DNA from: Actinoplanes sp. NBC_00393
GTDB lineage: Bacteria > Actinomycetota > Actinomycetes > Mycobacteriales > Micromonosporaceae
Direction of reading: 5' to 3'
DNA: 64,000 nt
NCBI RefSeq assembly: GCF_036053395.1
Contig: NZ_CP107942.1
Span: forward strand, 9,580,001-9,644,000
In this document: positions 1 through 64,000 of the stretch, in pieces
How positions within the stretch are numbered: the first letter of the stretch is position 1
Layout of the letters: every line of letters begins with the position of its first letter
Translations under genes and position numbers: made by a program
The notes under the pieces: generated by a model
The model's database searches: none
Seen by the model: the letters and a program-made list of their open reading frames with translations, nothing else
Told to the model about the DNA's origin: nothing

Positions 1-680
1 CGGTGGACCACGCGGCTATCGAGGCCGCGCTGCACAGCTGGGCGTTGCGCCTGGTGAACGTTCGGCGTAGCGCCAGCGACGAGGCCGGGGTGGCGCTGCT
101 GCGGCGGCTTCTGGCCCGAGTCCAGGCCAGCGCACCGGAAGTCGCCGCCGTCGCCCGGATCGCCGTCGGCTCGGACACCTCCGAGGCACTGCTCGCGGAG
201 GCGGGCGACGCCGACCTCGTGGTCGTTGGCCATCACCAGGGTGCTGCGGCGAGCGTTGTCGGGCTCAGCGTCGCCGGCCGTGTCGCCCGCAACCACACCC
301 GTCCGCTCCTGATCGTCCGGATGCCGGGCTGGCCGGCCGAGTTCGGGGCCCGGCCGCTGATGGTGGCTGTCGACGGGTCCCCGGCGTCGCGCAAGAGTGT
401 CCAGTTCGCGCTCGACGAAGCACGGGTCCGCGGCTGCGACGTCACCCTCCTGCACCTGATCGGTTCCGGAACGGACCTGGCCCGCCGTCACGAGATTTTG
501 GGTGGCGTGACCGTCCGTCACCGGATCCTAGGCGGGGATCCCGTGAACGCGTTGGTGGAGGCGTCCGACGCCGCAGCGGCGATGGTGATTGCTCAGCACG
601 GGCTGTCCGCACCGCTGCTGGAGATGGCGGCTCGCGTGCTGCCCCAGAAGGCGCTGTGCCCGGTGTTCCTGGTGGGTTGA
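1..680 (+). CDS. Universal stress protein, tandem UspA domains (5' end outside window)
   Basis: This is the C-terminal part of a two-domain universal stress protein, a soluble cytoplasmic family tied to hypoxia and dormancy in actinobacteria. The first domain begins mid-helix and lacks the usual VVVGVDGS-like first strand, so roughly 20 residues lie before the window; a GTG at position 3 is in frame but is probably not the real start. The first domain continues to LLIVRMPGW near residue 110. The second starts at PLMVAVDGSPASRKSVQFAL and ends at CPVFLVG. The glycine-rich ATP motif (G-2x-G-9x-G-S/T) is degenerate in both domains (VVGHHQGAAASVVG; IAQHGLSAPLLEM), so it may not bind ATP classically. 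It is the first of five USP genes in the window and is followed 30 bases later by a small membrane protein. Confidence 0.9.
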   Translation, partial: VDHAAIEAALHSWALRLVNVRRSASDEAGVALLRRLLARVQASAPEVAAVARIAVGSDTSEALLAEAGDADLVVVGHHQGAAASVVGLSVAGRVARNHTRPLLIVRMPGWPAEFGARPLMVAVDGSPASRKSVQFALDEARVRGCDVTLLHLIGSGTDLARRHEILGGVTVRHRILGGDPVNALVEASDAAAAMVIAQHGLSAPLLEMAARVLPQKALCPVFLVG

Positions 681-710
681 CGCTGCGTGCGGTGAAGAGC
701 AGGAGGAATC

Positions 711-971
711 ATGGAAGCCCTGCTGGTGGTGGTCCTCCTCCTGCTGTTCATCCGCAGCGCCGATTTAGTCGCACAGTTCCTCGCATTACGGCAGCCGGGA
801 CCAGCAGGACCACCGGCCAGTTCCGGCGATCCGTGTTCATCGGCCGGTCTCGTGCGCTCTCCGGCAACCGCGCTTGACTTGGAACGGGTTCTGCTTGACC
901 GGTTGTTATCCGGCGACATCGGGCAGGAGGAATATCGGGCCGCCATGGCGGACGCGGCGCGACTCAGGTAG
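711..971 (+). CDS. Small SHOCT-like protein with N-terminal hydrophobic segment
   Basis: An 86-residue protein preceded by a strong ribosome binding site, AGGAGG, ending 5 bases before the ATG. Residues 1-16 are strongly hydrophobic (ALLVVVLLLLFI) and could anchor the protein in the membrane. The middle is a Pro/Gly/Ser-rich linker. The last 30 residues (LERVLLDRLLSGDIGQEEY) look like a SHOCT motif, a short helical element often found at the ends of small actinobacterial proteins and thought to mediate oligomerisation. It lies 30 bases after the USP gene on the same strand and may be co-transcribed with it. The function is unknown. Confidence 0.7.
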   Translation: MEALLVVVLLLLFIRSADLVAQFLALRQPGPAGPPASSGDPCSSAGLVRSPATALDLERVLLDRLLSGDIGQEEYRAAMADAARLR

Positions 972-1113
972 CTCGGTTGGTGGCCCGTTGATCCGCCCGG
1001 CTGCTGTCGTGCTGGTCGTCGTCGTGCTCGTCGCGGGCACCCAACCGGCAAGGTTGGTCTGCGGAGAGGTGCGGGCAGCCAGCCGGCAGCGACCTAGTCC
1101 CGGGGCGTCTCGG

Positions 1114-1799: not shown

Positions 1800-4331
1800 T
1801 CATTGCGATGGCCGGGCGACCCGCCGCTGTCCCGCGACCCGCAACAGCAGACCGGGGACAGCAGCAACGGCGGTGCAGGCGAGGATCGTGGCGGCGGTGA
1901 GTGGTTCGGTGCCGAGCAGGCCCCGCAACGGTGCGGCGGCGACTCCGGCGACCTGCAGGAGCGCGCATACGGCTACGGCGGCGATCAGCGACCAGTTCCG
2001 GGCGGTGCCGGAGACGGCCGTGGCCCGCACGGCAAGGGCGACGCCGAGTTGGGCGAGCCCGAGCACGAGGAACATCACCGACTGCCACGGCAGGCAGAGC
2101 TGGCCAGCGAGCATACCGGCCGTGAGAGTCACGCCCGCTAGCAGACCTGCACCGGTTAGGACGCCGCGTAACAGGCCGGCGCCGAGGACCGACTCCTGCG
2201 GTGAGCGGGGCGGTCGCTGCAGCACGTCGGCTTCGGTGGGCTCGGCACCGAGCGCGACCCCGGGCACGCCGTGGGTGAGCAGGTTGATCCACAGCAGCTG
2301 GGCGGGCAGCAATGCCAGTGGCATTCCCAGGAACGGTCCGGCGAGCATGACCAGCAACTCGGCCACTCCGCCAGCAAGGGCGTAACGCAGGAACCGGCGG
2401 ATGTTGTCGTAGATTCGGCGGCCTTCGCCGATCGCAGCCACCACCGTGCCGAGGTTGTCGTCGACCAGGACGAGGTCGGCGGCTTGCCGTGCGACCTCGG
2501 TACCGTCGCCCATGGCGACGCCGATGTCAGCGTGGCGCAGCGCGGGCGCGTCGTTCACGCCGTCACCGGTCATCGCGACCACCTCGCCCCGGCGCTGCAG
2601 GGCGGCGATGATGTCGAGCTTCTGCTCTGGCTGCGTGCGCGCGAACACGCGCACCCTGGTGATGTCCGCGTCGGTCAGCGGGCCGCGGTCACCGCTGACG
2701 ACAGCGTCGCCCGCGGCGAGGATGCCGAGCCGGGCGCCGATCGCGGCCGCGGTTCCCGGGTGGTCACCGGTGATCAGCAGCAGCCGTACGCCGGCACGTT
2801 CGAACGCCGTTGCGGTCTGCTGGGCGGTGGCCCGTAGGGGGTCACCGATCCCGACCAGCCCGGCCGGACGCATCGGCGGCGGACTGGCCGGGTCGGGCCG
2901 GCCGCGGGTGGTGGCGGTGGCCACGGCCAGCACCCGCAGCCCGTCCGCGGCCAGTTGTGCCGCGGCCGCCAGCAGCACGGCGTCGTTGTCGGTCTCGAGG
3001 ATGTATTCCGGGGCACCCTTGCGCACCAGCAGATAGCCTCCGTCAGGCAGCTCGTGTGCTGTTGTCATCTGGCGGCGGGCCTGCTCGAACGGCTGCTCGG
3101 CTACCCGCGGCGTGGTGGCCCGTTCAGCATTCGGGTCCAGGTCGCAGCGGGCGGCGAACGTGAGCAGCGCGGCCTCCATCGGATCACCGGCTGCCGCCCA
3201 CTGCGCACGTTCATCGTCCGGTGCCAGCAGGCTTGCGTCGTTGCAGAGCGCCGCGCTACGCGCCAACTCCACCAGGTCCGCCGGGATCGCTGTGGCTCCG
3301 TCGGGGCCGGTGACCGTGCCGTCCGGCACGTACCCGGTTCCGGAGATCGTGTACCGGGCACCGTTCGCGGTGACCGCCTGCTGCACCATCATTCGGTTTT
3401 CGGTGAGCGTTCCGGTCTTGTCGGAGGCGATCACAGTGACCGACCCGAGCGTTTCCACCGCGTGCAACCGGCGGGGGATCGCCCGGATGCGGGCCATCCG
3501 CCGCGCGCCGAGCGCCAAGGCGAGGGTGACGACAGCAGGCAGGCTCTCGGGGACTGCCGCGACGACCAGACTGACGGCGGTGATCGCCATCTGCGCCACC
3601 GGCCGACCGGCAAGCATGCCGAGGAAGAACACCAGCGCGGACACCGCGACTGCGGTTACACCGAGCATCCGGCCGAGGGCGACCAGGCGACGCTGCAACG
3701 GGGTCGGCCCGGATCTGGTGTTGGCGACGAGGTCGGCGATGCGCCCTAGCGCGCTGTCCGCTCCGGTGCGTAAGGCCGTGCCGGCAGCACGCCCGCTGAT
3801 CAGGACGGTGCCCCCGCTTGCGATGTCCGCCACCTGCCGGTGCATCGGGACGGACTCGCCGGTCAGCGACGACTCGTCGAACGCGGTCCGCTGCGCCTCG
3901 GTGAGCTCCAGGTCTGCGGGCACGATGTCCCCGGCTTCGAGACGCACGTGATCACCAGGTACGAGGTCAGCGGCCGGCACGATCTGGTCGCGGCCGTCTC
4001 GGACGACCCGGGCGACGGGTGCAGCAAGCTGGTTCAGGGCGGCGACCGCCGCGTCCGCGCGGACCTCCTGGATCACTCCGATCGTCGTGTTCACGGCGAC
4101 CACGAGGACGATGATCAGCGTGTCGGGAAGGTCACGAAGGACCGCGGTCACCGCCCCGGCTGCAAGGAGTAATGCCACCAGGGGGTCCGCCAGTTGCCGT
4201 CTGGCCCGTCTGGCGATGCTCCGCGGCGGTGGCACGGCGGTCGTGTTCGCGCCGTGGGCGGCAAGACGTGCGGCCGCCTCCGCGCTCGACAGTCCACCGA
4301 CCGTGGTTTGGGATGTCTCGATGTGGCTCAT
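1800..4331 (-). CDS. ctpF-like: P-type cation-transporting ATPase (CtpF/SERCA-like P2 type)
   Basis: An 843-residue P-type ATPase that would pump a cation across the cell membrane using ATP. In order: a cation-ATPase N-terminal domain (residues 1-60), two membrane helices, the actuator domain with TGES, helices 3-4 with PESLP, the phosphorylation site DKTGTLTEN, the nucleotide-binding domain, the hinge TGDGVNDAP, and C-terminal helices. The reading frame is open well upstream, but MSHIETSQTT at 4331 is the sensible start because the preceding translation is Arg/Pro-rich and a GAAGGG element lies upstream. Helix 6 reads NLLTHGVPGVALG, where calcium pumps have Asp in the NLVTDGLPA context, so the ion is uncertain. 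The mycobacterial homologue ctpF belongs to the DosR regulon, which fits the island. It is divergent from the USP gene at 4666. Confidence 0.93.
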   Translation of the reverse strand: MSHIETSQTTVGGLSSAEAAARLAAHGANTTAVPPPRSIARRARRQLADPLVALLLAAGAVTAVLRDLPDTLIIVLVVAVNTTIGVIQEVRADAAVAALNQLAAPVARVVRDGRDQIVPAADLVPGDHVRLEAGDIVPADLELTEAQRTAFDESSLTGESVPMHRQVADIASGGTVLISGRAAGTALRTGADSALGRIADLVANTRSGPTPLQRRLVALGRMLGVTAVAVSALVFFLGMLAGRPVAQMAITAVSLVVAAVPESLPAVVTLALALGARRMARIRAIPRRLHAVETLGSVTVIASDKTGTLTENRMMVQQAVTANGARYTISGTGYVPDGTVTGPDGATAIPADLVELARSAALCNDASLLAPDDERAQWAAAGDPMEAALLTFAARCDLDPNAERATTPRVAEQPFEQARRQMTTAHELPDGGYLLVRKGAPEYILETDNDAVLLAAAAQLAADGLRVLAVATATTRGRPDPASPPPMRPAGLVGIGDPLRATAQQTATAFERAGVRLLLITGDHPGTAAAIGARLGILAAGDAVVSGDRGPLTDADITRVRVFARTQPEQKLDIIAALQRRGEVVAMTGDGVNDAPALRHADIGVAMGDGTEVARQAADLVLVDDNLGTVVAAIGEGRRIYDNIRRFLRYALAGGVAELLVMLAGPFLGMPLALLPAQLLWINLLTHGVPGVALGAEPTEADVLQRPPRSPQESVLGAGLLRGVLTGAGLLAGVTLTAGMLAGQLCLPWQSVMFLVLGLAQLGVALAVRATAVSGTARNWSLIAAVAVCALLQVAGVAAAPLRGLLGTEPLTAATILACTAVAAVPGLLLRVAGQRRVARPSQ

Positions 4332-4665: not shown

Positions 4666-5556
4666 ATGCAGACGATCGCGTCGGTCACAGAGAAGCTGTC
4701 CGTGGTGGTCGGCGTGGATGACCTGCCGACCGCCCTGCACAGTGTGGATATTGCCGCCGATGAGGCGGTACGCCGGGGTGTGCCCCTGGTGATCGTGCAT
4801 GCCTGGCCCGGATGGCACCGCGGTACCCGCTATCGGGCGGTAGCTGCGGACCGCAAGGATGGACGGCATCTACTCGACCTCGCTGTCCAGCGCGCCGAGC
4901 ATGCCCATCCCGGCCTGCCGGTCCGGGCAGAACTGACCGACGACAGCGGCGCCAAAGCGTTGCTCGAGCGCTCGGGGCAGGCTTCGCTGCTCGTGATCGG
5001 TCACCGGGACACTGCCGGACGCCGGCTTGGATGGGGCCCGACCGCGACATACCTGGCGCATCACAGTTCCTGCCCGCTGCTCGTCCATCAAGGCCGAGCC
5101 ACGTCGCGGGGGCCGGTCGTACTGGCGGCATCCGGCCGTCATACCGCGACTATGGAACTGGCCTACGACTTCGCCGCCCGAACGACGTCCCCTTTGGTGG
5201 CCGTGCACGTGTGGACCGCTGGCCACCCCGGTCAAGCGCGTGACAGCGGCCGAGGCGCGGCCGAACGTCGACTCGCTGACGTACTCGCCGTGGGCGGTAC
5301 ACGGTGGCCTGACGTCGAGGTTGAGCGACTACTCATCAATGAGAACGACATCGCCTACACGGTGCAGCGGGCGATGCGGCGGAGCCGTCTTCTGGTGGCC
5401 GGCGTGGGGCACAAGGGCTGGACTATCGAAGTTGCCCGCCGTTCCACGTTTGCCGATGTCGGTACGCGCCAGGCCTGCGCGGTCCTGCTCGTCCCTCCGG
5501 GATGGCCGAGCGGGCTGCTGGCACAGGCCGCGTCGGCCAACACCGCTCGATGCTGA
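4666..5556 (+). CDS. Universal stress protein, tandem UspA domains
   Basis: A 296-residue tandem USP. Domain 1 starts at LSVVVGVDDLPTALHSVDIA and ends at CPLLVHQGR; domain 2 runs from GPVVLAASGRHTATMELAYD to CAVLLVPPG. The start is placed at the ATG at 4666 because the first strand follows within ten residues. ATP-loop motifs are poorly kept: domain 1 has GHRDTAGRRLGWGPT and domain 2 has VGHKGWTIEVARRST, so this looks like a non-canonical, perhaps non-ATP-binding member. It is divergent from the ATPase gene and convergent with the ywiC-like gene. Confidence 0.92.
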   Translation: MQTIASVTEKLSVVVGVDDLPTALHSVDIAADEAVRRGVPLVIVHAWPGWHRGTRYRAVAADRKDGRHLLDLAVQRAEHAHPGLPVRAELTDDSGAKALLERSGQASLLVIGHRDTAGRRLGWGPTATYLAHHSSCPLLVHQGRATSRGPVVLAASGRHTATMELAYDFAARTTSPLVAVHVWTAGHPGQARDSGRGAAERRLADVLAVGGTRWPDVEVERLLINENDIAYTVQRAMRRSRLLVAGVGHKGWTIEVARRSTFADVGTRQACAVLLVPPGWPSGLLAQAASANTARC

Positions 5557-5673: not shown

Positions 5674-6417
5674 CTACGGCATGGCGAGGGCGGCAACCGT
5701 CAGCACCAGAACACTCGCCCCGATCTCGATCAGACCGACCTGCTTCGGGCTGAGCGGGCGGCCGGGCAGCAGCCAGGCGCGGGCCAGCAGCAGCACGAAA
5801 ATCAGCGCCGATCCGACGCCAGTCAGGCTTGCTGCCGCAAACGCGACAAGGTGGTAGCCGACGGAGGCCCGCCGGTAGGCGACGACGCCCCGTTCCCGGA
5901 TCATCGTCTTCACGTAGAGCACCGTGCCGGTGAAGTAGAGCAGCACGAGCAGGAAGGGCACGAACACCCGATCCGCCGGTACCTCGGCGATGACGGCGAT
6001 GACCGGGATCATCAGGCAGCTCTGGACGACCGATGCCAAGTCGTTGGGGAGCGCGCGTTCGCGGCGTCGCAGGGCATACCAGCCGTTGATGGCGAGCAGC
6101 AGCACGTACGCGGGCGCGAAGAACAGTACCCGCGGCCGGGCGAGCAGGACTGGAACGGCGAGTACGACGGTGATCAGGCCGTACCAAAGCAGCTGTGCCC
6201 GGACTCGGCTGGGCCGGCGAGTTTTGATGGACTGGAAGGCGAAGTAGGAAAAAACGTAGCCGCTTAGCCAAGCGCCGAACAACGGCAGATCCGGCCAGCG
6301 GAAACCAGCGGTGAGCAGACCGACAAGGTACGGCACCAGCAACATCGCCCACGCGCCGTGCTGCGGTGGAATGTATCGGCGCATGCTGCGCCGACGGCTG
6401 GGAACGGGACGGCTCAT
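5674..6417 (-). CDS. ywiC: YwiC-like polytopic membrane protein
   Basis: A 247-residue, very hydrophobic protein with about seven membrane helices. The N-terminus carries RRYIPPQHGAWAMLLVPYLVG, the PxQHGAW signature of the YwiC-like family. In Bacillus subtilis ywiC sits beside narK, fnr and narGHJI; here it is divergent from narGHJI, so the association is conserved across phyla although its role is not established. The ATG at 6417 is chosen over longer frames because GAGGGTGGC precedes it and translation further upstream is Arg-rich and unlike protein. A second possible start is the ATG at 6384. Confidence 0.85.
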   Translation of the reverse strand: MSRPVPSRRRSMRRYIPPQHGAWAMLLVPYLVGLLTAGFRWPDLPLFGAWLSGYVFSYFAFQSIKTRRPSRVRAQLLWYGLITVVLAVPVLLARPRVLFFAPAYVLLLAINGWYALRRRERALPNDLASVVQSCLMIPVIAVIAEVPADRVFVPFLLVLLYFTGTVLYVKTMIRERGVVAYRRASVGYHLVAFAAASLTGVGSALIFVLLLARAWLLPGRPLSPKQVGLIEIGASVLVLTVAALAMP

Positions 6418-6941
6418 GCCACCCTCAGCTCGAACCGTCGTGCGGCCCGCAGCACCGATCGTTGCGTGCAGGGAGGCATCTTCCACGCGTTGCAAGCTAT
6501 GGCGTCGGAGGGCCCTAAGAAAGGGTCTTCCGGCCCGCAAACGTGACTGCGGACAACCATCGCAGGCAGCCGCACGTCAATCGATGATTCCGTTGAGCAC
6601 CATGAGTGGCCCGCCGACAGTGAAGTGTTCTCCAGTAACGGAGACCGCACCGGCCGGGCGCCGCTTGGTCCGCAACGGCACGCCGATTTTGGCCGCCGAG
6701 TACAGCGGGAGAACCGCGACGCGTCGTGGCCTTGCGGCAGACGACTGGCCGCTCCGTTCCGGCGCTGCACTGTTCGGCGGTTGTGGGCGACGAGTTGCGA
6801 CCGCTGCCTCTCCGACAAGTTCGGGACTTTAGTCCCCTACGAAGCGGGACCGGCGGCTCAGGCCAGTGGCAGTGCGTTCGAACAGGCTGATCTTGCGCTG
6901 GGCGACCGTCCGGTGGCTGGTCCACGGCGAAGGAAGACACC
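6418..6941. other. Divergent promoter region, ywiC-like / narG
   Basis: The 524 bases contain no convincing gene. They hold the near-perfect DosR-type box at 6820-6839 and an imperfect dyad at 6511-6526 (GGCCCTAAGAAAGGGTC) nearer the ywiC-like gene that could be a second operator. The long leader leaves space for more control elements that I cannot identify. Confidence 0.6.
6820..6839 (+). promoter_or_regulatory. DosR/DevR-type box upstream of narG
   Basis: TTCGGGACTTTAGTCCCCTA matches the mycobacterial DosR consensus TTSGGGACTWWAGTCCCSAA at 19 of 20 positions, with a perfect 14-base core dyad at 6823-6836. Its centre lies about 112 bases before the narG GTG. The DevR-like regulator encoded at 27896-28537 keeps the recognition helix TVKNYVS, so it is the obvious candidate to bind here. 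Confidence 0.88.
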
Positions 6942-9900
6942 GTGTCACGAGACCCCTCGACGGACACCGTTCCCGGTATGGCTCCGCTGCTGGCGGCGCG
7001 CCGCTTCCTCACCCGGGAGACGGTCGGCGACCACGGGCGGACCCTGCATCAGGTCGACGGCAACGACTGGGACGCGTTCTACCGGGACCGGTGGCGTTAC
7101 GACAAGGTGGTCCGGTCCACCCACGGGGTCAACTGCACCGGCTCCTGCTCGTGGAACGTCTTCGTCAAGGACGGGCTGATCACCTGGGAGCACCAGGCCA
7201 CCGACTACCCGACGACCGGGCCGGACGCCCCGGACTACGAGCCGCGCGGCTGCCCGCGGGGGGCGAGCTTCTCCTGGTACGAGTACTCGCCGTCCCGTGT
7301 GCGTCACCCGTACCTGCGTGGGGTTCTGGCGGAGATGTTCCGTGAGGCGCGGCAGCGGCTGGGTGACCCGGTGGCCGCGTGGGCGGAGATCGTGGAGACC
7401 CCGCTGAAGGCCCTGGCCTACAAGTCGCAGCGTGGCCGTGGCGGGTTCGTGCGGGCCGGCTGGGACGAGGCGATCGAGCTGGTGGCGGCTGCGCACGTCT
7501 ACACGACGAAGAAGTACGGGCCGGACCGGGTGGTCGGGTTCTCGCCGATCCCGGCGATGTCGATGGCGTCGTTCGCGGCCGGCACCCGCTATCACGCGCT
7601 GCTCGGCGGAACCCTGCTCAGCTTCTACGACTGGTACGCCGACCTGCCGATCGCCTCCCCGCAGATCTGGGGTGACCAGACCGACGTGCCGGAGGCGGGG
7701 GACTGGTGGAACGCCACCTACCTGATGATGTGGGGTTCGAACATCCCGGTGACCCGGACGCCGGACGCGCATTTCCTGGCCGAGGCCCGTTACAAGGGCA
7801 CCAAGGTGGTCGCGGTGTCGCCGGACTACGCGGACAACGTGAAGTTCGCCGACGACTGGCTGGCGCCGCATCCCGGAACCGACGGCGCGCTGGCCATGGC
7901 GATGGGGCACGTGGTCCTCAAGGAGTTCTTCGCCGACCGCGAGGTCCCCTACTTCGCCGACTACGTCCGCAAGTTCACCGACCTGCCGTTCCTGGTGACC
8001 TTGCGCAACACCGGCGAGGCGTGGGCCGCGGACCGTTTCCTCACCGCCGCGGACCTCGGTGATCCGGACGGTGCGCACAAGACGGTGCTGATAGACGAGC
8101 GGACCGGTGAGCCGGTGGTGCCGAACGGTTCGCTCGGCTTCCGCTACGGCGATGCCGGCGCCGGCCGTTGGAACCTTGATCTCGGGGACGTCGTTCCGCA
8201 GCTCGGTTTGGACGTCGACGGGGAGACGGTCGAGATCGACCTGGCGCGGTTCGACGAGGGTGAGACCGAGGGCGGTACCACGATCCGTCGCGGCGTGCCG
8301 GTCCGGTGGATTGGCGGGCACGCCGTCACCACGGTCTTCGACCTGGTCATGGCCCAGTACGGTGTCCGTCGCGGCGACCTGCCCGGCGAGTGGCCGCTCG
8401 GCTACGCCGACGCTGACTCGCCGAACACCCCGGCCTGGCAGGAAAAGATCACCGGCGTGCCGGCCATGCTCGCCACCCGGATCGGCCGGGAGTTCGCGCG
8501 CAACGCCGAGCGCAGCAACGGCCGGTCGATGATCGTCCTGGGTGCCGGGGCGAACCAGTGGTTCCACTCCGACATGACCTATCGGGCGTTCATCACGCTG
8601 GTCACGCTCACCGGCTGCCAGGGTGTGAACGGTGGTGGCTGGGCGCACTACGTGGGTCAGGAGAAGGCCCGGCCGATCACCGGCCAGCAGCACATGAGCT
8701 TCGCCTTCGACTGGCAGCGGCCGATGCGGCACCAGGCGTCCACCCCGTTCTGGTACCTGCACACCGACCAGTGGCGCTACGAGCGGGTCCCGGCCGACGA
8801 GCTGTCCTCGCCGCTGGGCACCGGGCGGTTCACCGGGATGGCGTTCGCCGACACCGTCGCCGCTGCCCAGCGGATGGGCTGGAGTCCCGGTCACCCGTTC
8901 TTCAACCGCAACCCCCTCGACCTGGCCCCGGCCGCCGCAGCGGCCGGCAAGCCGGTGCAGCAGTACATCGTCGAGGAGCTGCAAGCCGGCCGCCTCAAGC
9001 CCGTCGCGGAGGACCCCGACGACCCGGCCAACTTCCCGCGCTGCCTCACGCTCTGGCGGGCCAACCTGCTCGGCTCCTCCGGCAAGGGCAACGAGTACTT
9101 CATGCGCCACCTGCTCGGCGTCGACGGCACCGCCACCGCCACCGAGTGTGAGCCCGGACAGCGGCCGCGCGACGTGACCTGGCGGCACGAGGCGCCGGTC
9201 GGCAAGCTCGACCTGCTCACCGCGATCGACTTCCGGATGACCAACACTGGCCTGCATTCTGACCTGGTCCTACCTGCCGCCACCTGGTACGAGAAGCACG
9301 ACATCTCCACCACCGACATGCACCCGTTCGTGCACGCGTTCAGCCCTGCCGTCGACCCGCCCGGCGACGTGCACACCGACTACGACACGTTCCTCGCGCT
9401 GGCCGACAAGGTCAGCGAGCTCGCCGTCGACCATCTGGGCGTACGGACGGACGTCCTGGCCGCGCCGCTGCAGCACGACACTCCGGATGAGCTGGCCATG
9501 CCCAGCGGCCGGGTCCGCGACTGGAAGTTCGGCGAGTGCGATCCGATGCCGGGCCGCACCATGCCCAAGCTGATCGCGATCGAGCGGGACTACACGCAGA
9601 TCGGCCGCAAGATGCGGACCGTCGGCCCGCTGCTCGACAAGCTCGGCACCACCACCAAGGCGATCACGGTCGACGTCAATCCTGAGATCGACTACCTCAA
9701 GCACCAGAACGGCGTGATCGACGGCAGGCCTTCACTCGCCACCGCCGACCGGATGTGCGAGGCGATCCTCGCCTTCTCCGGCACCACCAACGGCCGGGTC
9801 GCCCACGCCGGATTCGCCGAGTTGGAGAAGCGCACCGGGCAACGGTTCGCCGACTTCATCGAGGGCCACGAGAACGACCGGATCACCTATCCGGAAACCC

Positions 9901-10598
9901 AGGAAGCCCCGCAACCGGTTTTTACCAGCCCGGAGTGGTCCGGCTCGGAGAAGAACGGCCGCCGCTACTCGCCGTTCACGATCAACGTGGAGCGGCTCAA
10001 GCCGTGGCACACGATCACCGGGCGCCAGCACTTCTTCGTCGAGCACGACTGGGTCGCCGAACTGGGCGAGCAACTACCGGGATTCCGACCGCCGCTGAAC
10101 ATGGCCCGGCACTTCGGCAAGCCGGGCGACGCCGTGGACGGGGGAGTGACCGTACGGTTCCTGACCCCGCACGCCAAGTGGTCGATCCACTCGATGTACC
10201 ACGACAACGAACTGATGCTCGCCCTCTCCCGGGGCGGTCCGGTGATCTGGATGAGCGTCCCGGACGCCCTCAAGGTCGGCGTCGCCGACAACGACTGGAT
10301 CGAGGCGCACAACCGCAACGGCGTCGTGGTCGCCCGCGCGGTCGTCTCCCACCGGATGCCCGAGGGCACGGTCTTCCAGTACCACTCGCCGGAACGCACC
10401 GTGAACGTCCCCAAGGCCGAGAAGTCCGGCCGGCGCGGCGGCTACCACAACTCGATGACCCGGCTGCTGATCAAGCCGACCCATCTGGCCGGCGGCCACG
10501 CCCAGCTCACCTACGCCTTCAACTACTACGGCCCGATCGGCAGCCAGCGCGACGAGATCACCGTGATCCGCCGCCGCCGGCAGGAAGTGGAGTACTGA
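6942..10598 (+). CDS. narG: Respiratory nitrate reductase alpha subunit NarG
   Basis: A 1218-residue catalytic subunit of the membrane-bound, cytoplasm-facing nitrate reductase; it reduces nitrate to nitrite at a molybdenum bis-MGD cofactor with electrons from NarH. The FS0 cluster ligands are visible as [11 protein letters not shown] followed by [13 protein letters not shown] (His-Cys-Cys-Cys pattern). The Mo-ligand Asp lies in [20 protein letters not shown]. Further NarG landmarks are [16 protein letters not shown] and [20 protein letters not shown]. The start is a GTG with AGGAAG six bases upstream. The gene ends in a TGATG overlap with narH. It heads narGHJI and is likely under DevR control through the box at 6820. 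Confidence 0.98.
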   Translation: [1218 protein letters not shown]

Positions 10599-16478: not shown

Positions 16479-16482
16479 CCTC

Positions 16483-43826: not shown

Positions 43827-43832
43827 GGCAGA

Positions 43833-47607
<3,775 letters not shown>

Positions 47608-52238: not shown

Positions 52239-52916
52239 AGATGTGGTCCTCTCGTTGCGATGGCACCTCGATCGAATGCTATTGACGCGCACGGTGGCTC
52301 GCAGCGAAAGGACGATTCCGTGGCCAGTGCCGTGCGGTCGTGTTCGCAGCTCAGGCTGTGCAGCGCCGAGATCTTGTGAGTGACACGCCGGGCGAGGCGA
52401 GTGTCCGATGATTTGCCGTCCTGTGTACGGCAGGCGGCGGGCCGCTGGCCATGGCGAGTCGATGGCCCCTGGGCCGGCTGTCCGAGATTGTCACTCCGGG
52501 GTCGCGGCCACGGAGGTCGCCGAGGCCACGGCCGTCGTGAACCACCTTCGCCGCAGTCGTTGCCCAAGTAGGAATACAGCGGCGCAGCGGGCGCACGCCG
52601 ATCCCCTCACGCCGGAGTCAGTGACCGCTTCACCGTCCCCTTGGCGGATGCATCGGGCAGGGCTGGCCAGCGAGTCCTTGAAGGCCGCCGATCAGAGCGC
52701 GTGCGCGGCATGCCGGTGGGTCGGCCGTGCGGTACGCCATATCGGTGAATGGCGGCCGTGTTGCGCCGCCGAGGGACTTTCGGCCCTGAACAAGTACCGC
52801 CCCGCGCGGTCACTGTGAGCTGTGAAGGACGTCACCGCTGGTGTTCGCCGGAAGGTCCCTTTGCTGAGACCCGAGGTGGCGCCGGTTGCGGTTTCCGAAC
52901 GAGGAGGGCGAGCAGG
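52239..52916. other. Divergent promoter region, xfp / USP
   Basis: The 678 bases between two divergent genes contain no credible coding sequence. A good DosR-like dyad lies at 52770-52789, closer to the USP gene. Confidence 0.5.
52770..52789 (+). promoter_or_regulatory. DosR-like box upstream of USP gene
   Basis: The core GGGACTTTCGGCCC at 52773-52786 matches 12 of 14 DosR core positions. It lies about 130-145 bases upstream of the USP ATG at 52917. After the narG and narK boxes it is the best candidate in the window. Confidence 0.65.
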
Positions 52917-53729: not shown

Positions 53730-53929
53730 GCGCCCACGATCGGTGCTGGATCACCGGTCGGCCCGTGGGGAGGTGAGCGGCCAAACCGCCTCGACAGCGT
53801 CGGCCAGAGGAACGAACCCGCAAGCAACGCGGCAGCACGAGCTTTCACCCAGACGTGGTCGCAACGGGGAAGGCCGGCTCGACCAGAACCGTCAGGACCT
53901 GCAAACCCGTGACGTGGAAGGCAACGAAC

Positions 53930-54898
53930 ATGATCCCGGACCCGTCCAGCATGCTGACCAACGCCGCCGTCTTCGCCGCGCGGGCACCGTCGCTGCACAA
54001 CACCCAACCTTGGCACTGGCACGTCCATCACAACACCCTCGAACTGTCGCTGGACACCCGACGGGTGCTGCCGGCCACGGACCCGGACGCCCGGCTCGCC
54101 ATCCTCAGTTGCGGCGCAGCCCTGCACCATGCCGTGATCCGGCTCGCCGCCGACGGACAGGCCGTGACCGTGCAGCGCCAACCCGACACCGCCGATCCGA
54201 CCCTGCTGGCCCGGGTGCGGGTAACTGGCACCATGCTTGCCGACCAGGATGCGGTGGCGCTGGCAGAACAGGTGCCACACCGCAGAACCGATCGCCGTAC
54301 TGCTACGGCCGCCCCGGTCGATCTCGACTTGGTCCGGCGGATCCGGGAAGCGGTCAAAAGCCACGGATGCGGCCTCATCCCGTTGTCACCGCGGCAACTG
54401 GTCACGCTCGCGGAGGCGGTCGAGGCCGCCCACCACGTCGAAGCCCTCGACCCGCAATGGCAGGTGGAAGTAGCAGGCTGGGTCGGTGGGAACCGTCCCG
54501 ACGGGACCGGCATCCCCACCACTGCACTGCCAGAGGATCCCTACCTGCTGACCGCGCCGGCCCGGGCCTTGCGCCGGGCCGGGGCCGCTCTCATCGCGGA
54601 CTCGCAGCAGCGGGCGGCGGTGTTCACCGTCCTGCACGGACCCGACGATCTCCCGCAGACCTGGCTGCGAGCCGGGGAAGCGCTGTCCGCGGGCTGGCTG
54701 ACCGCGACCAGCACCCAGATCGCGGTCCTGCCGCTGAGCATCGTCGCCGAGGTGGCCACCACCCGCGACCGCATCCGCGCCGCCTTGAACTTCACCAGCC
54801 ACCCGTTCCTGGTGCTGCGGCTGGCCGCAGCGGGCAGCAGCATCGCGCCCTCGGCCACCCCACGGCTGCCGGCAGCGGCAGTCATCACCCGATCCTGA
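53930..54898 (+). CDS. Acg-like FMN-binding nitroreductase family protein (second copy)
   Basis: A 322-residue paralogue of the protein at 21649. It carries FAARAPSLHNTQPWHWHVHH near the N-terminus, VPHRRTDRRTATAAPVDLDL in the middle and TSHPFLVLRLAAAG near the end. The ATG at 53930 follows GGAAGG; translation further upstream lacks the fold. The pairing of an Acg-like protein with a USP repeats an arrangement common in the DosR regulon. Substrate and activity are unknown. Confidence 0.88.
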   Translation: MIPDPSSMLTNAAVFAARAPSLHNTQPWHWHVHHNTLELSLDTRRVLPATDPDARLAILSCGAALHHAVIRLAADGQAVTVQRQPDTADPTLLARVRVTGTMLADQDAVALAEQVPHRRTDRRTATAAPVDLDLVRRIREAVKSHGCGLIPLSPRQLVTLAEAVEAAHHVEALDPQWQVEVAGWVGGNRPDGTGIPTTALPEDPYLLTAPARALRRAGAALIADSQQRAAVFTVLHGPDDLPQTWLRAGEALSAGWLTATSTQIAVLPLSIVAEVATTRDRIRAALNFTSHPFLVLRLAAAGSSIAPSATPRLPAAAVITRS

Positions 54899-56171: not shown

Positions 56172-56191
56172 GGCGGGTCCAAAGTCCCTGT
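56172..56191 (+). promoter_or_regulatory. DosR-like box upstream of narK
   Basis: The core GGGTCCAAAGTCCC at 56175-56188 matches 12 of 14 DosR core positions, with a perfect AAAGTCCC right half. It is about 135-155 bases upstream of the narK ATG. In mycobacteria narK2 is a DosR target, so this conserves the regulatory logic. Confidence 0.65.
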
Positions 56192-56325: not shown

Positions 56326-57570
56326 ATGAGCAGTTCGTCGGCCCGCCTCACACGGGACCCTCACCCGAACGGCCGTCCGGGGTTGATGCTGACACTGGCC
56401 ACGGTCGGGTTCGCGGTGAACTTCTGGGCATGGGCGCTGCTCAGCCCGCTCGCCGTCCGGTTCACGGCCGCTCTGAATCTCAGCCCGTTCCAGCAGGCGT
56501 TGCTGGTGGCCGTACCGGTGGTGGTCGGCTCGGTCGGCCGGATCCCGGTCGGGGCGCTGACTGACAAGTTCGGTGGCCGGCTCATGTTTCCGCTGGTGTC
56601 GCTCGCCACCATCGTGCCGGTGCTGTACCTCGGCTTGCTCGGGCACGGCTCCCTGGCAGCGCTGCTGATCGGTGGGTTCTTCCTCGGCATCGGCGGCACC
56701 GCGTTCGCGGTCGGTGTCCCGTTCGTCAGCGCCTGGTTCCCGCCGCAGCGGCGCGGCTTCGCCGTCGGTGTGTTCGGTGCCGGCATGGGTGGCACCGCGA
56801 TCAGCGCGCTGACCACCGTCAAGCTGGTCGACGCCGGCAGCACCGCGACCCCGTTTCTGATCACCGCTGCGGTGCTCGCCGTCTACGCGGTCGTCGCCTG
56901 GCTCGTCATGCGTGACGCCCCGGACCGGCCGGTGCCGACCGCCCCGCTCGCCGCCCGGCTTGGCGCGACGCTACGGCTGCGGATTACCTGGCAGGCGTCG
57001 GCCTTGTATGCGGTCGCGTTCGGCGGCTACGTCGCGTTCTCCGTCTACCTGCCCGCCTATCTGAAGACCGCGTACGGGCTGGCCCAGGCCGACGCCGCCA
57101 ACCGGATGGCCGGGTTCGTCGTCCTCGCGGTGATCATGCGCCCCGTCGGCGGGTGGCTGTCCGACAAGGTCGCCCCAAGCCGGGTGCTGGCCGCCAGCCT
57201 GGGCGTGGTCCTCGTCGGTGCGGCCGTGCAAGCGTTCACCCCGGGCCTGGCACCGGTCGGCACGATCGCGTTCCTTTCCATGGCCGCCGCGCTCGGTGCC
57301 GGCAGCGGTGCCACGTTCGCCCTGGTCGCACAGGTCGCTCCGGCCAACCAGGTCGGCTCGGTCACCGGCATCGTCGGCGCGGCCGGCGGACTCGGCGGGT
57401 TCGTGCCGCCGCTGGTGATGGGAGCAATCTACGGCAGTTTCGAGTCGTACGCCCTCGGCCTGGCCCTGCTCGCCGTGGTCGCCCTGGCCGCCCTGCTGCT
57501 CGACATCCTGTCGGTCGCCCGCAGCGCCGGCCGCGAGACCGCACGAGGCGGGGAAGTCGTTCATGTGTGA
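56326..57570 (+). CDS. narK: Nitrate/nitrite transporter NarK (MFS)
   Basis: A 414-residue major facilitator protein with 12 predicted helices that imports nitrate or exchanges it for nitrite. The nitrate-porter signatures are visible as GTAFAVGVPFVSAWFPPQRR and GFAVGVFGAGMGGTAI in the first half and VGSVTGIVGAAGGLGGFVPP in the second. The ATG at 56326 follows GGAGAG; the open frame upstream is not protein-like. It is separated from narGHJI by more than 40 kb but shares a similar operator. Its end overlaps the hemerythrin gene by eight bases. Confidence 0.95.
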   Translation: MSSSSARLTRDPHPNGRPGLMLTLATVGFAVNFWAWALLSPLAVRFTAALNLSPFQQALLVAVPVVVGSVGRIPVGALTDKFGGRLMFPLVSLATIVPVLYLGLLGHGSLAALLIGGFFLGIGGTAFAVGVPFVSAWFPPQRRGFAVGVFGAGMGGTAISALTTVKLVDAGSTATPFLITAAVLAVYAVVAWLVMRDAPDRPVPTAPLAARLGATLRLRITWQASALYAVAFGGYVAFSVYLPAYLKTAYGLAQADAANRMAGFVVLAVIMRPVGGWLSDKVAPSRVLAASLGVVLVGAAVQAFTPGLAPVGTIAFLSMAAALGAGSGATFALVAQVAPANQVGSVTGIVGAAGGLGGFVPPLVMGAIYGSFESYALGLALLAVVALAALLLDILSVARSAGRETARGGEVVHV

Positions 57571-58039
57571 GTACTGCGGCTGCCAGGAGGTCACCGCGAT
57601 CGGTGACCTGACCCGTGAACACGACGAGGTCGTTGCCCTGATGAGTGACGTGCGTACGGCACACGCCGCTGGCGACGTCGACGGCATGGCGGTGCTGGCC
57701 CGCCGGATCAGCGAGATCCTCAGCCCGCACACTGCCGTGGAGGAAGAGGGACTTTTCCCTCTGCTGGCCCCCGACTTCCCCGATCAGGTGGACGCGTTGC
57801 GGACCGAGCACCGCCACGTCGAGGCCGTTCTCGGCGCCGCCGCCACCGCAACGCCGGCCGACCCGGACCGGCCAGCTGCGTTCATGGATGTGCTGTCGGA
57901 GTTGCGGGCGCACATCCTCAAGGAACAGGACGGTGTGTTCCCGGCCGCGTTGACCACGCTCGACGGTGCCGACTGGGACGCCGTCGACGCCGTCCGTGCC
58001 CGCGTCGGCAGCGGTCTGCATCACGACGCCACCGCCTGA
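57563..58039 (+). CDS. Hemerythrin (HHE) domain protein
   Basis: A 158-residue protein with two HHE helical pairs forming a likely di-iron site: LTREHDEVVALMSD, LSPHTAVEEEGLFPLL, LRTEHRHVEAVLG and LRAHILKEQDGVFPAAL. It starts MCEYCGCQ, a three-Cys leader also seen in related actinobacterial proteins. The eight-base overlap with narK implies co-expression; a role in binding NO or oxygen, or repairing iron centres during nitrite stress, is plausible but inferred. Confidence 0.92.
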   Translation: MCEYCGCQEVTAIGDLTREHDEVVALMSDVRTAHAAGDVDGMAVLARRISEILSPHTAVEEEGLFPLLAPDFPDQVDALRTEHRHVEAVLGAAATATPADPDRPAAFMDVLSELRAHILKEQDGVFPAALTTLDGADWDAVDAVRARVGSGLHHDATA

Positions 58040-58093: not shown

Positions 58094-59302
58094 TCAGTCG
58101 GTGTCGGCCTGCCACAAGTCCGGGCCGAACACTTCGTATTGAATGTCACGCACACCGACACCTCGTTCGAGCAACGCTCCACGAATCGCCTGCATGAAAG
58201 CGATCGGCCCGCACAGGTAGTAGACCGCGTTCTGCGGCAACTCCACCCCGCTCAGGTCCATCATGCCGGCGTGCGCGGCGGCGACGGGAAGCTCACTGCC
58301 GCTCCCGTCCTCGTACCAGACGTGTAACGCCGAGCCGGGCAGCCGGGCGAGATCGCCGACAAGCTGCTGCCGCAGCGGGAACGACGCTTCGTTGGCGTCG
58401 GCGTGCAGCAGCGTCACGTTCAGGTGCGAACCGGCCGCGACCAGGTGCGAGATCATCCCGGCCATCGGGGTGACCCCGATCCCGGCGCTGACGAAGACCA
58501 CCGGCCGGCCGCCGTCGTCGAGGACGACATCGCCGTACGGCACGCTCATGGTTAGTTCGTCGCCGACCTGAACCCGGTCGTGCAGGAACGTCGACACCTC
58601 CCCGTCGGGTTTCCCGCCGCCGTGCACCCGCTTGACCGCGAAGTAGCGGTGCTCGCCGTCGTCGGCGCGGGTCAGGCTGAACTGGCGCGGCTGACGCACG
58701 CCGTCCGGCATCAGCGCGTTGACGGTGATGTACTGGCCGGGCAGCGACGTCTTCACCGGCCGGTCGTCGACCCGGCGCATCACGAACACGGTGACGTCGT
58801 CGGTTTCCCGGATCTTCTCGGAGACCGCCCACTGCCGCCACACCCGTTCCGCGGTGACCCCGCGGGCGCTGTACAGGCCGCGCTCCTGATGGATCAGCGC
58901 GTACGCCATCAGCCAATAGACTTCGTCCCACGCGGCTGCGACCTCCGGGGTGACCGCGTCACCGAGCACGTCACCGATCGCCCACATCAGGTTGTCCCGC
59001 ACGATCTGATACTGGTCGGGGCGGATGCCCAGCGACGCATGCTTGTGCGCAATCCGGGTTAGCAACCGCTCCGGCAACTGCTGCGGGCTCTTCACCAACG
59101 CAGTGGCGAACACCGCCACCGACCCGGCCAGGGCCTTCGGCTGGCTGCCCTCAGCCTGGTTCCCGCGGTTGAACATCCCGTCCTGTAAATCCGGGTGCTC
59201 GGCGAACATGTGGGCGTAGAACCGGTTCGCGATCTCCTCGATGTGTTCGCCGACAACCGGCAGCGTGGCCTCGACAATCGGCCGGGCCTTGTCCGACAGC
59301 AC
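58094..59302 (-). CDS. hmp: Flavohaemoglobin (nitric oxide dioxygenase)
   Basis: A 402-residue enzyme that turns NO and O2 into nitrate, using NAD(P)H. The globin domain (1-140) starts MLSDKARPIVEATLPVVGEH, with the proximal His in IAHKHASLGIRPDQY. The FAD domain has GQYITVNALMPDG and RQFSLTRADD. The NAD domain has VFVSAGIGVTPMAGMI, YYLCGPIAFMQ and the C-terminal YEVFGPDLW. The GTG start at 59302 has GGGAGGT five bases upstream and gives the standard MLS start. It complements qNor: qNor works without oxygen, Hmp with it. Confidence 0.97.
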   Translation of the reverse strand: MLSDKARPIVEATLPVVGEHIEEIANRFYAHMFAEHPDLQDGMFNRGNQAEGSQPKALAGSVAVFATALVKSPQQLPERLLTRIAHKHASLGIRPDQYQIVRDNLMWAIGDVLGDAVTPEVAAAWDEVYWLMAYALIHQERGLYSARGVTAERVWRQWAVSEKIRETDDVTVFVMRRVDDRPVKTSLPGQYITVNALMPDGVRQPRQFSLTRADDGEHRYFAVKRVHGGGKPDGEVSTFLHDRVQVGDELTMSVPYGDVVLDDGGRPVVFVSAGIGVTPMAGMISHLVAAGSHLNVTLLHADANEASFPLRQQLVGDLARLPGSALHVWYEDGSGSELPVAAAHAGMMDLSGVELPQNAVYYLCGPIAFMQAIRGALLERGVGVRDIQYEVFGPDLWQADTD

Positions 59303-61663: not shown

Positions 61664-61684
61664 GCGTGGTAGAGGCCAGCCGGC

Positions 61685-63310
61685 TCAGCCGGCAAGTGCC
61701 TGATGGACCGCGGTCAGCAGTTCCCGCCGGGTGAACGGCTTCTCCAGCAGCGTGTTCGCCGGGTCGAGGGTGCCGTGAGTGGCCAGGAACGGGGTGGCGT
61801 ACCCGGACATGAACAGCACCTTAGTGCCGGCACGCTTCGCGGTGACGCGTTCGGCAAGCGCGGTACCGAGCATGGTGGGCATCACCACATCGGTCAACAA
61901 AAGGTCGATTGAGCCGGGATGCCGGTCGGCCAACTCGACCGCGGCGGCGGCGTCATTCGGGGCCAGTACCTGGTATCCGCTGGTGTCCAGCAAGCGGCGG
62001 CACACCTGCCGCAGACTGGGTTCATCCTCGACCAGCAACACCGTCTCTCCGTGCCCGGCAAGCTGATCCAGCCTGGGCTCCGCGGGGCGTGCGGTCGTCG
62101 GCCGTTGATCAGTTACCGGCAGCAGAATGCTGAAGGTGGTTCCCACACCCTCCTCGGAGCAGACCGTGACGGTTCCGGCGGCACCGGTCACGATCCCGTA
62201 CACCATTGCCAGGCCCAAGCCGGTGCCTTGACCCGGTGCCTTCGTGGTGAAGAACGGTTCGAAGATCCGGTCGACGACCTCGCGGGGCATGCCGGTGCCG
62301 GTGTCGCTGACCCGCAACCGCGCATACTCACCCGGTTTGATCGCCGGGCCGTGTGTGACGTGGTCGCCGTCGACCATGACGCTGTCGGTCTCGATACTCA
62401 GGGTGCCGCCACCCGGCATGGCGTCGCGGGCGTTGACGGCCAGGTTGACCAGAACCTGTTCGAGCTGTCCCGGATCGGCCATGATCGGTCCGCAGTCACC
62501 GCCGCAGGTGATGGACAGGGTGATGTGCTCGCCGATCGAGCGGCGCAGCATGTCCTCCACGCCGTGCACGACGGTGGCCCAGTCGACGGCCTGCGGCCGC
62601 ACGACCTCCTGGCGGGCGAAGGCCAGTAACTGCCGGGTCAGGTCACCGCCGCGGCGGGCGGCTCGCATGATCTGCTGCGCGTCCTGACGGACCTCAGCCC
62701 ACATCTCCGGTCCGTCCCCGGCCGGATGCTGTTCGTCGGCGCTGTCCGAGATGAATGCCGCATAGTTGACGATCACGGCGAGAAGATTGTTGAAGTCGTG
62801 GGCGACACCACCGGCCAGCTGACCCAGGCTCTCCATCCGTTGGGTGCGCAGCAGCTGGGCTTGCAGTGCCGCCCGGTCGGCTTCCTCCCGCAGCCGGACC
62901 CGTTCGGCCTCGGCGCGTAGCCTGTCGCTGATGTCGCGAACCGCCGCGGATACGATCAGTCCGCTGTCGGTACGCAAACCGCTCAGGCTGATCTCAGTGG
63001 GAAACACCACGCCGTCCTTGCGGCGCGCCCGTAGCGGTTCACCGCCGCCCATGGCCCGGTGCACCGCGTTGGCGAAGTACCGCTCTCGCATTTCACGGTG
63101 TGCCTGCGCGAGGTCGTCCGGAACGAGGACCTCGATCGGTTGGCCGATCAACTCGTCCCGGCCGTAACCGAACAGCCGCTCGGCCTGCCCGTTGACGAAC
63201 ACGATCCGCCCGTGCCGATCCGCACCGACCATCGGGTCCGGCGCCGCATCGACCAGTTGCCGAAACAGCGAGTCGTCCGGCACCAGGTGCTTGTCGTCGG
63301 CTGTAGTCAC
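61685..63310 (-). CDS. PAS-domain hybrid histidine kinase with C-terminal receiver
   Basis: A 541-residue cytoplasmic hybrid kinase. PAS domain at about 12-135 (FRQLVDAAPDPMVGADRHGR, YGRDELIGQPIEVLVP); HisKA with the phospho-His in LGQLAGGVAHDFNNLLAVI; HATPase with VNLAVNARDAMPGGG and GTGLGLAMVYGIV; then a receiver domain (about 420-541: VLLVEDEPSLRQV, phospho-Asp in IDLLLTDVVMPTM, Lys in LLEKPFTRREL). The GTG at 63310 (VTTADDKHLV) follows GGAGCGG; the frame runs 149 codons further upstream with no domain. The partial receiver protein at the window end may work with it. Confidence 0.93.
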   Translation of the reverse strand: MTTADDKHLVPDDSLFRQLVDAAPDPMVGADRHGRIVFVNGQAERLFGYGRDELIGQPIEVLVPDDLAQAHREMRERYFANAVHRAMGGGEPLRARRKDGVVFPTEISLSGLRTDSGLIVSAAVRDISDRLRAEAERVRLREEADRAALQAQLLRTQRMESLGQLAGGVAHDFNNLLAVIVNYAAFISDSADEQHPAGDGPEMWAEVRQDAQQIMRAARRGGDLTRQLLAFARQEVVRPQAVDWATVVHGVEDMLRRSIGEHITLSITCGGDCGPIMADPGQLEQVLVNLAVNARDAMPGGGTLSIETDSVMVDGDHVTHGPAIKPGEYARLRVSDTGTGMPREVVDRIFEPFFTTKAPGQGTGLGLAMVYGIVTGAAGTVTVCSEEGVGTTFSILLPVTDQRPTTARPAEPRLDQLAGHGETVLLVEDEPSLRQVCRRLLDTSGYQVLAPNDAAAAVELADRHPGSIDLLLTDVVMPTMLGTALAERVTAKRAGTKVLFMSGYATPFLATHGTLDPANTLLEKPFTRRELLTAVHQALAG

Positions 63311-63871
63311 CGGTCCGCTCCGTCCCAGTAGCGGCGGAGTCTGCCGTGCGGCGGCCAGAGCTGTCCCGGCGGTGCGCTGGTAGCGCCGACCGGACGAAGG
63401 ACCGCGCTGGTACCCAACAACGTGGCCACCCCCTTTCGCGTCGACCCGGTGTTCTTCGTACCGCATCGTCGGACGAGCGACTGCCACATACGCAAACCCG
63501 CACCGCCTCGACGGCGCCGTGTCCAATGCGAGAGGGTGTGCCGGCCGCACACCAGAAGCGGTAGGACATGCTACAAAGCCTGGTGGGTCCCGCGGCCTGG
63601 GCCGTGGGTTGATGCGGCGGGGATGATCATCGCGAACCGCCGTACCCGATGGCCTGACCTGGTCGCTGTGAGGAGAGAAGTCACCGCTGCACCACGATAG
63701 GACTGGCGTTCTCGGATCAAATCTATGCCTGGCGTCCGCGGATCGACGCTCTGTCACCTCGCTGGCCGGCGGCCGTGACCGGCTCCTTTGCGCAAGGCCG
63801 GACCAGGGCCTCCTGCTGACGTGAGTCGGCCCCTTCGATCGGAACCCGGGAGTGTCTTCGGTGCTGCGCTG
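63311..63871. other. Intergenic region upstream of the hybrid kinase
   Basis: The 561 bases between the end of the partial receiver gene and the hybrid kinase, both on the minus strand, show no convincing gene, hairpin or DosR-like dyad. Confidence 0.4.
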
Positions 63872-64000
63872 TCACGGGCAGGCGAAGGGAACCTGACCGT
63901 CCTCATGTCCGCTGTGCAGGGCCTTGTCGACGCAGCCGACGAGCTCCCGCGGCTCGAACGGCTTACGCAGAAACCCGGTCGCCTGCGCGTCTTCCGGTAG
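63872..64000 (-). CDS. C-terminal end of a response-regulator receiver protein (partial)
   Basis: Read on the minus strand from the window edge, the frame encodes LPEDAQATGFLRKPFEPREL followed by VGCVDKALHSGHEDGQVPFA and a TGA at 63872-63874. GFLRKPFEPRELV is the end of a receiver domain, with its conserved Lys-Pro-Phe, and it closely resembles the tail of the receiver in the neighbouring hybrid kinase. The start lies outside the window, so it is open whether a kinase or another domain precedes it. Confidence 0.8.
   Translation of the reverse strand, partial: LPEDAQATGFLRKPFEPRELVGCVDKALHSGHEDGQVPFACP

Follow-up and report, generated by a model that had tools for sequence, protein, structure and literature searches.

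The stretch analysed here, referred to as the window, comprises the 64,000 nucleotides from base 9,580,001 to base 9,644,000 of the single, 11,433,213-base chromosome of Actinoplanes sp. NBC_00393 (genome G000). It contains a gene pair resembling the DevS sensor kinase and DevR (DosR) response regulator of Mycobacterium tuberculosis, surrounded by genes for nitrate respiration, nitric oxide (NO) handling, stress proteins and fermentation. Judging from gene content and predicted binding sites, the window is probably the core of an Actinoplanes-type DevRS/OsdKR hypoxia (dormancy) island, with a fermentation route under predicted DevR control. Genes were called with a codon model that had been trained on 144 kb, the window plus 40 kb to either side, and domains were sought by scanning 40 open reading frames (ORFs) of the window against Pfam and 20 ORFs or pieces against NCBIfam. 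Comparisons drew on 67 Actinoplanes genomes including G000; G-numbers denote genomes, L-numbers fetched loci, and positions are those of the window unless a chromosomal position is given.

The sensor gene (26100..27779, minus strand) encodes a GAF-GAF-HisKA_3-HATPase protein, which aligns with the haem-GAF structures of M. tuberculosis DosT and DevS (2vzw, 2y8h) through an HHPPM segment, the histidine of which we take to be the haem ligand. The regulator (27896..28537, plus strand) has a receiver and a GerE domain; 212 of its residues align with M. tuberculosis DevR (3c3w; E 2.4e-75), with D8, D9, D54 and K104 retained and the EKTVKNYVS segment identical. A second devR is found at 0.52 Mb of the chromosome, giving two copies in G000. 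Adjoining devRS on the minus strand are genes for a MerR regulator, an ABC ATPase and a protein of 526 aa that Pfam does not recognise, assigned as a permease by position (22769..26054); the same neighbours stand beside devR-pflBA in G082.

Respiratory nitrate reductase is encoded by narGHJI (6978..13610, plus), in which NarG passes its NCBIfam cut-off (TIGR01580), NarJ is recognised by library models, and NarH and NarI are assigned by operon position and gene calls rather than by a library match. This operon is followed by adhE (13839..16478, plus), encoding a bifunctional aldehyde/alcohol dehydrogenase with both domains present (NF010378, 1372 bits against a cut-off of 951), and a quinol-type NO reductase gene (qNor; 16666..19080, plus), identified through its NorB cytochrome-c-like domain and COX1. 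Overlapping genes for a NarK-like transporter and a hemerythrin lie at 56386..58039 (plus); the former is a major facilitator superfamily protein scoring 199 bits with the NarK model, below its cut-off of 311.7. The Hmp flavohaemoglobin (58094..59302, minus) has the expected domains and an NCBIfam score of 330 bits, below the cut-off of 432. Pyruvate formate-lyase (PFL) and its activating enzyme are encoded by pflB (37809..40070, plus; TIGR01255) and pflA (40067..40885, plus; TIGR02493). PflB retains a cysteine pair at 417 and an RVSGY segment at 725, the glycyl-radical loop, and PflA the CX3CX2C motif as CHLRCLYC at 51. Beyond pflA are found an acetate kinase gene additional to the housekeeping copy (ackA; 41117..42235, plus; TIGR00016), a gap-pgk pair (42630..44834, minus), a second glycogen phosphorylase gene (glgP; 45172..47607, plus; TIGR02093), a second type of malQ (47625..49415, minus) and a phosphoketolase gene (xfp; 49809..52238, minus; NF003619), Gap, Pgk and MalQ being recognised through Pfam or curated models, as is the hemerythrin. 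PflB, PflA, AckA, GlgP and Xfp all score above the cut-offs of the models given. Two Acg-family flavin mononucleotide (FMN) oxidoreductases (21739..22665 and 53909..54898, both plus) pass NF047509 and match Pfam, and a CtpF-like, Ca-type P-type cation ATPase (1800..4151, minus) is recognised by both libraries. Pfam and curated models thus bear out the inventory of the original prediction, which named the DosS/DosR-like pair, nar, NO genes, Pfl, AdhE, AckA, Xfp, GlgP, MalQ and Acg. Its five tandem universal stress protein (Usp) genes are in fact dispersed, at 1..680 (plus; the 3' part of a gene starting at about -231 in L002), 4666..5556 (plus; one recognised domain), 31808..32695 (minus), 34396..35271 (plus) and 52749..53729 (plus), the last three with two Usp domains each. 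The true start of the last is probably at about 52.9 kb, because the Usp domain begins at residue 57.

The original prediction had let the island fill the window exactly; the island is present there, and genes of the same kinds, with the same boxes, continue beyond both ends, from about -22 kb to about +71 kb. The genome has 35 Usp-domain matches in all, of which 15 are in the 81-kb stretch 9,570,456-9,651,321, more than expected by chance. The left flank holds genes for pyruvate phosphate dikinase (PPDK), a Zn-alcohol dehydrogenase (Zn-ADH), DoxX, a nitroreductase-type protein, Usp and a CBS-BON protein, and a second narGH operon (L001, 3753 onwards) some 43 kb to the left of that in the window; no strict box (defined below) was found before the narG of this left-flank operon. 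The right flank has CBS-BON, cyclic nucleotide monophosphate (cNMP)-binding, nitroreductase-type and Usp genes. Four narG-type genes were seen in G000 altogether.

OsdK/OsdR of Streptomyces coelicolor are homologous to DevS/DevR, and OsdR binds palindromes of the kind sought here, according to PMC5069765, the published OsdR sites in which supplied our starting motif. A first matrix, made from seven published S. coelicolor sites, did not place the window narG site among its 45 best and was replaced. The final matrix was built from 101 sites in relatives, G000 being left out, and scanned on the held-out 144 kb of G000. A strict Dev box, GGG(A/C)C-N4-G(G/T)CCC, was searched for in promoters, with the reversed pattern as control. 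The strict box was found in 106 of 315 unique homologue promoters outside the G000 island, against 16 of 315 for the reversed pattern. In type-B pflB promoters it was present in 17 of 24, always centred 27-40 bp before the start; in devR promoters outside the island it was present in 13 of 23, with 12 of 14 sites at 42-43 bp, and that of the second devR of G000 also carries a Dev box. Promoters of PPDK (4/5), Zn-ADH (7/13), AdhE (4/8) and Xfp (4/12) outside the island had it as well.

Across the 144 kb, matrix matches were enriched in the promoters of the region, with scores of at least 10 at 19 intergenic and two coding positions, against one and seven for the reversed control. At the other loci of G000 there were no such sites in 40 kb at glgP-2, one in 20 kb at pta, one in 40 kb at pflB-2 (1.92 Mb) and three in 40 kb at devRS-2. 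The best window site, GAGGGACTTTCGGCCCTG (52771..52788; score 19.7), lies between the start of xfp, at a distance of about 530 bp, and the probable start of the adjacent Usp gene. Next comes TCGGGACTTTAGTCCCCT (6821..6838; 16.9), 149 bp upstream of narG, which resembles the DosR consensus and is accompanied by a weaker site at 6521 (9.0). The box GCGGGTCCAAAGTCCCTG (56173..56190; 11.9) is 205 bp upstream of narK, GCGGGCACAAAGGCCCTG (37649..37666; 10.5) about 152 bp upstream of pflB, and a further site (34302..34319; 9.8) stands upstream of the Usp gene at 34396. Weak sites occur at 32750 (6.1), before the Usp gene at 31808..32695, and between gap and glgP (5.1).

PflB matches were found in 46 of the 67 Actinoplanes genomes, some of the copies being broken, and the nearest named match is from Actinoplanes cyaneus (91%). 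Among 17 genomes with one or two contigs and both genes, DevR and PflB are within 20 kb of one another in eight (seven of 16 without G000), where 0.127 would be expected and none of 200,000 random draws reached eight, a statistic that ignores shared ancestry, the relatives not being independent. In seven of the 17, AdhE is no more than 25 kb from DevR or PflB (0.276 expected), and in A. cyaneus and G072 narGHJI and pflBA are adjacent. The idea of a conserved gene order for the block was dropped: a recurring pool of genes, comprising PPDK, Zn-ADH, Usps, nitroreductase-type proteins, acyl-CoA synthetase, P-type ATPase, flavodoxin, DoxX, CBS-BON, cNMP and Xfp, is found in scrambled order among relatives. 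The outcome that the original prediction named as refuting it, scattered homologues without synteny, is half seen: the order is lost, yet the genes still cluster, and pflB and pta-ackA retain the box where they are placed elsewhere. Broken pflB copies (L117-L118 in G074, about 9 kb from devR; G059:C1:7085613-7087660; G051:C41) suggest that the pfl arm has decayed more than once. Of the 80 named PFL loci, 59 are actinobacterial, and eight of these have DevR and/or DevS within the fetched stretch. The box preceded pfl in nine of 22 Streptomyces/Kitasatospora loci (reversed control none), four of 24 from Micrococcales (two), one of six from Micromonosporaceae (two), two of seven from other Actinobacteria (none) and none of the 21 non-actinobacterial loci (none).

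Besides the non-independence of these genomes, several observations weigh against DevR control of a fermentation route. In nine of the 17 genomes, over 60 kb separates DevR from PflB. Looking for autoregulation, we found no Dev box in the devRS promoter of the window, and there was likewise no site scoring at least 5 within 450 bp of devRS, ackA, malQ or hmp; the site before adhE (13623) is weak, at 5.9. The reversed pattern occurs in six of the 24 type-B pflB promoters, accounting for six of its 16 matches, and in gap promoters it outnumbers the box (3/5 against 2/5). Outside the island, the strict box is missing from six of 13 type-A pflB promoters, with pflB directly after adhE in four of these six loci (L008, L011, L012, L014), and no strict box was found in the flavodoxin (0/4), acyl-CoA synthetase (0/4), F420 (0/4) or GlgP (0/3) promoters, or in one nitroreductase group (0/5). 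Over the whole 11.43 Mb, a looser box has 139 matches against 580 for its reverse, and a tighter box, GGGMCNWWNGKCCC, has 22 against 27; as the tighter box is no commoner than its reverse, only its placement is informative.

Eight of these 22 matches lie between 9,559,733 and 9,650,295 (91 kb), against none of the 27 reversed ones. Elsewhere, two stand at devRS-2/acg; at 0.87 Mb, ywiC and narG are each preceded by one; pflB-2 has one before it and pta-ackA one at its start; two lie at 8.37 Mb between divergent narG and hmp, with a phosphoketolase gene (xfp) and a Usp gene behind hmp; and one before a MauE/DoxX gene. Four of the 22 have no plausible target. One reversed match falls near devR-2 (525,216), by chance as far as can be judged. 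A tighter-box match at L239 4430 (G000 6,659,430) is inside an ORF just before the cobalamin gene cbiC.

An early idea that pta was absent was dropped when the single copy was found immediately upstream of the housekeeping ackA (7.395 Mb), outside the island, so that G000 has the route from acetyl-CoA to acetate. The box here scores 18.9 and is centred about 42 bp before a GTG (L213 8902), taken as the probable pta start because conservation with relatives begins there. The matching stretch was retrieved from 20 of the other 66 Actinoplanes genomes: 15 reach a score of at least 10, in 14 cases with the site at the position it has in G000, and three more score 8.0, 8.1 and 9.8 at that position. 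In G040 the threshold is reached only elsewhere, with a remnant of 3.1 at the conserved position, where G048 and G057 have no box. Aligned over 21 rows, the box has an average majority of 92% in its ten core columns, compared with 66% for 30 downstream columns and 11% for 40 upstream columns, the last figure being lowered by gaps scored as zero. This footprint is the strongest single sign that the predicted Dev box reaches central fermentation metabolism. G023, which has the pta box scoring 9.8, keeps DevRS, and neither PflB nor AdhE was matched there at the cut-offs applied.

The remaining features of the window include a nar-linked, YwiC-like membrane protein (5674..6345, minus; Pfam), another copy of which is about 5 kb from the narG at 0.87 Mb. 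An SPFH/Band 7 protein (19736..20551, plus) stands in a row with unassigned genes at 19077-19739 and 20553-20825; together with qNor, the 220-aa, SPFH and 90-aa proteins of 16666-20825 perhaps form a single operon. A flavodoxin-domain protein (28626..29126, minus) and a GGDEF protein (33420..34049, plus) were both recognised by Pfam. Scans of the window with Rfam at the gathering threshold and for tRNAs gave no match. Several features had been absent from the original prediction: the left-flank PPDK, Zn-ADH and second nar genes; a GNAT and ADP-forming acyl-CoA synthetase gene (29152..32039, minus) split into two frames (30651-32039 and 29152-30852); a truncated triosephosphate isomerase (42301..42630, minus), of which about the first third is left, lying where ackA ends and next to pgk; and an AspT/YidE/YbjL-type transporter (35505..37163, minus) divergent to pflBA. 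The synthetase gene appears to be frameshifted, its ten best Actinoplanes matches having open frames of 892-1821 codons. The transporter is perhaps an exporter of fermentation acids.

The original prediction had drawn glycogen use into the anaerobic programme, so that the whole block from glycogen to formate, acetate and ethanol, including GlgP and MalQ, would be one co-regulated pathway. All the named enzymes are indeed present and adjacent, and the weak box between gap and glgP could be read in its favour. However, the window holds no good box for GlgP, MalQ, AckA or Gap-Pgk, and the arm looks nearly peculiar to G000. A second GlgP is found in G000 alone among 20 near-complete genomes. In one other case, in G047, a GlgP is no more than 20 kb from a PflB; it is the sole copy of that genome, and a divergent one. 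In the GlgP tree the island copy joins the housekeeping GlgP of G074 and that of G053 (support 100/97) rather than that of G000 itself, which points to acquisition or copying. The island type of MalQ (at least 70% identity) is present in eight of the 67 genomes, G000 included, and the MalQ regions of five of the seven relatives (20 kb each) contain no GlgP, DevR or Pfl. The island AckA is present in one genome of 67, the best match in the other 66 having 72% identity, and no relative exceeds 73% among the 120 best matches listed of 8000 scored. No Pgk of the window type turned up in the islands of relatives, no genome-by-genome search for Gap or Pgk being made, and the neighbouring triosephosphate isomerase is truncated. 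A single co-regulated glycogen pathway is hence unlikely; the extra GlgP, MalQ, Gap-Pgk and AckA are lineage-restricted additions, putative regulon members at most, which may still serve the anaerobic programme.

A more sparing explanation would limit the locus to a DevR/OsdR stress island plus nitrate respiration, the fermentation genes being bystanders in a permissive region. The scrambled gene order, the genes without a good box, Hmp among them, and the distance of PflB from DevR in over half of the genomes compared would all fit. Bystanders would not, however, be expected to keep a box at pflB-2 and pta-ackA, far from any DevR, which weakens this account to the point where we regard it as improbable. 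It is more improbable still that a different oxygen or redox regulator, such as Rex or a Crp/FNR-like protein, governs the fermentation genes. The right flank does encode a cNMP-binding protein, but no Rex-type site with up to one mismatch was found in the 144 kb, and the single Crp-type (52821) and FNR-type (60690) sites are not beside pfl, adhE or ackA. Control of the fermentation route by DevR is the reading we consider probable. The original low-oxygen interpretation, joining nitrate and NO respiration and formate/acetate/ethanol fermentation to a DevR-type regulator, is supported by the shared boxes and the repeated co-location.

In the mechanism proposed, the haem-GAF DevS, by homology, would sense the loss of oxygen (or NO) and phosphorylate DevR, which would then bind the predicted boxes and switch on nar, narK-hemerythrin, NO handling and the Usp and Acg proteins. 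It would also switch on a fermentative route to ATP through PFL, PPDK and the distant pta-ackA, with phosphoketolase and AdhE joining the programme in part of the relatives. PFL would convert pyruvate to formate and acetyl-CoA, and Pta-AckA would turn acetyl-CoA, by way of acetyl phosphate, into acetate with substrate-level formation of ATP; AdhE would dispose of NADH as ethanol, and nitrate, when present, would act as electron sink. The island itself would be a shuffled, locally growing collection of genes. More tentatively, the Actinoplanes DevR may be a general anaerobic switch comparable to enteric FNR, covering nitrate respiration, NO defence and acetate/formate fermentation, possibly with an acetyl-phosphate feedback loop. 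Acetyl phosphate phosphorylates S. coelicolor OsdR in vitro (PMC5069765). Since Pta and Xfp both make this phosphodonor, a positive feedback loop could arise if DevR governs pta-ackA and xfp, keeping hyphae or spores locked in dormancy while they ferment.

Although filamentous actinomycetes count as strict aerobes, they survive anoxia. Accounts of the Streptomyces dormancy regulon have so far centred on nitrate reductase and stress proteins, and its fermentative arm may have drawn little notice, perhaps in part because the pfl activase of S. lividans is annotated as a pseudogene fragment (PMC6302529). Literature searches, with most subscription journals outside their coverage, gave no report combining Actinoplanes and 'pyruvate formate'; pyruvate formate-lyase, DosR and actinobacteria occurred together once, in a text whose accessible pfl passage concerns FNR; and the titles and starts of abstracts listed gave no DevR action on pfl or pta-ackA beyond PMC6302529. 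The accessible main text of a study of Micromonospora at low oxygen (PMC12916061) does not contain pyruvate, nitrate, DosR, dormancy or universal stress.

The island shares with the M. tuberculosis DosR/DevR regulon the homologous sensor and regulator, Acg/Rv3131-type proteins, Usps and the CtpF-type ATPase; that regulon is not known to include PFL-based fermentation. The conserved Dev box at pta-ackA and pflB bears on whether such actinomycetes ferment once oxygen is exhausted and on whether a tuberculosis-type dormancy switch controls central energy metabolism. Seven loci from Streptomyces, a Frankiaceae metagenome-assembled genome and Sphaerisporangium (L039, L051, L057, L060, L100, L090, L037) have pflBA beside DevR/DevS, with AdhE in six; unlike G000, none has a GlgP or MalQ match of at least 50% among the matches listed. 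The closest likeness in the literature is the OsdK/OsdR region of S. coelicolor (SCO0167-SCO0219), which PMC5069765 describes with DevRS, Usps, a nitroreductase, PPDK, Zn-ADH, nar2, NarK with a hemerythrin and a palindromic GGG/CCC box, a box being present at narG in both species. The target section of that paper names no pfl gene and no pta-ackA, and its main text, as accessible, does not contain the words formate or phosphoketolase or the tag SCO0206, whereas G000 has an intact pflBA and a pta-ackA with a conserved box. In S. lividans TK24 a putative pfl (SCO0206), PPDK, ADH, nar2 and usp follow osdR expression, Pta-AckA and Xfp not being in the part of that table covered (PMC6302529, Table 2). 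The activase gene follows osdR there too, although, unlike the intact pflA here, its annotation is that of a putative pseudogene for an N-terminal fragment; this pattern fits the mechanism proposed above. Such a cluster being already known from Streptomyces, its occurrence 'in an otherwise aerobic lineage', as the original prediction had it, is not new in itself; what is new is the evidence that the predicted sites of DevR reach the fermentation genes.

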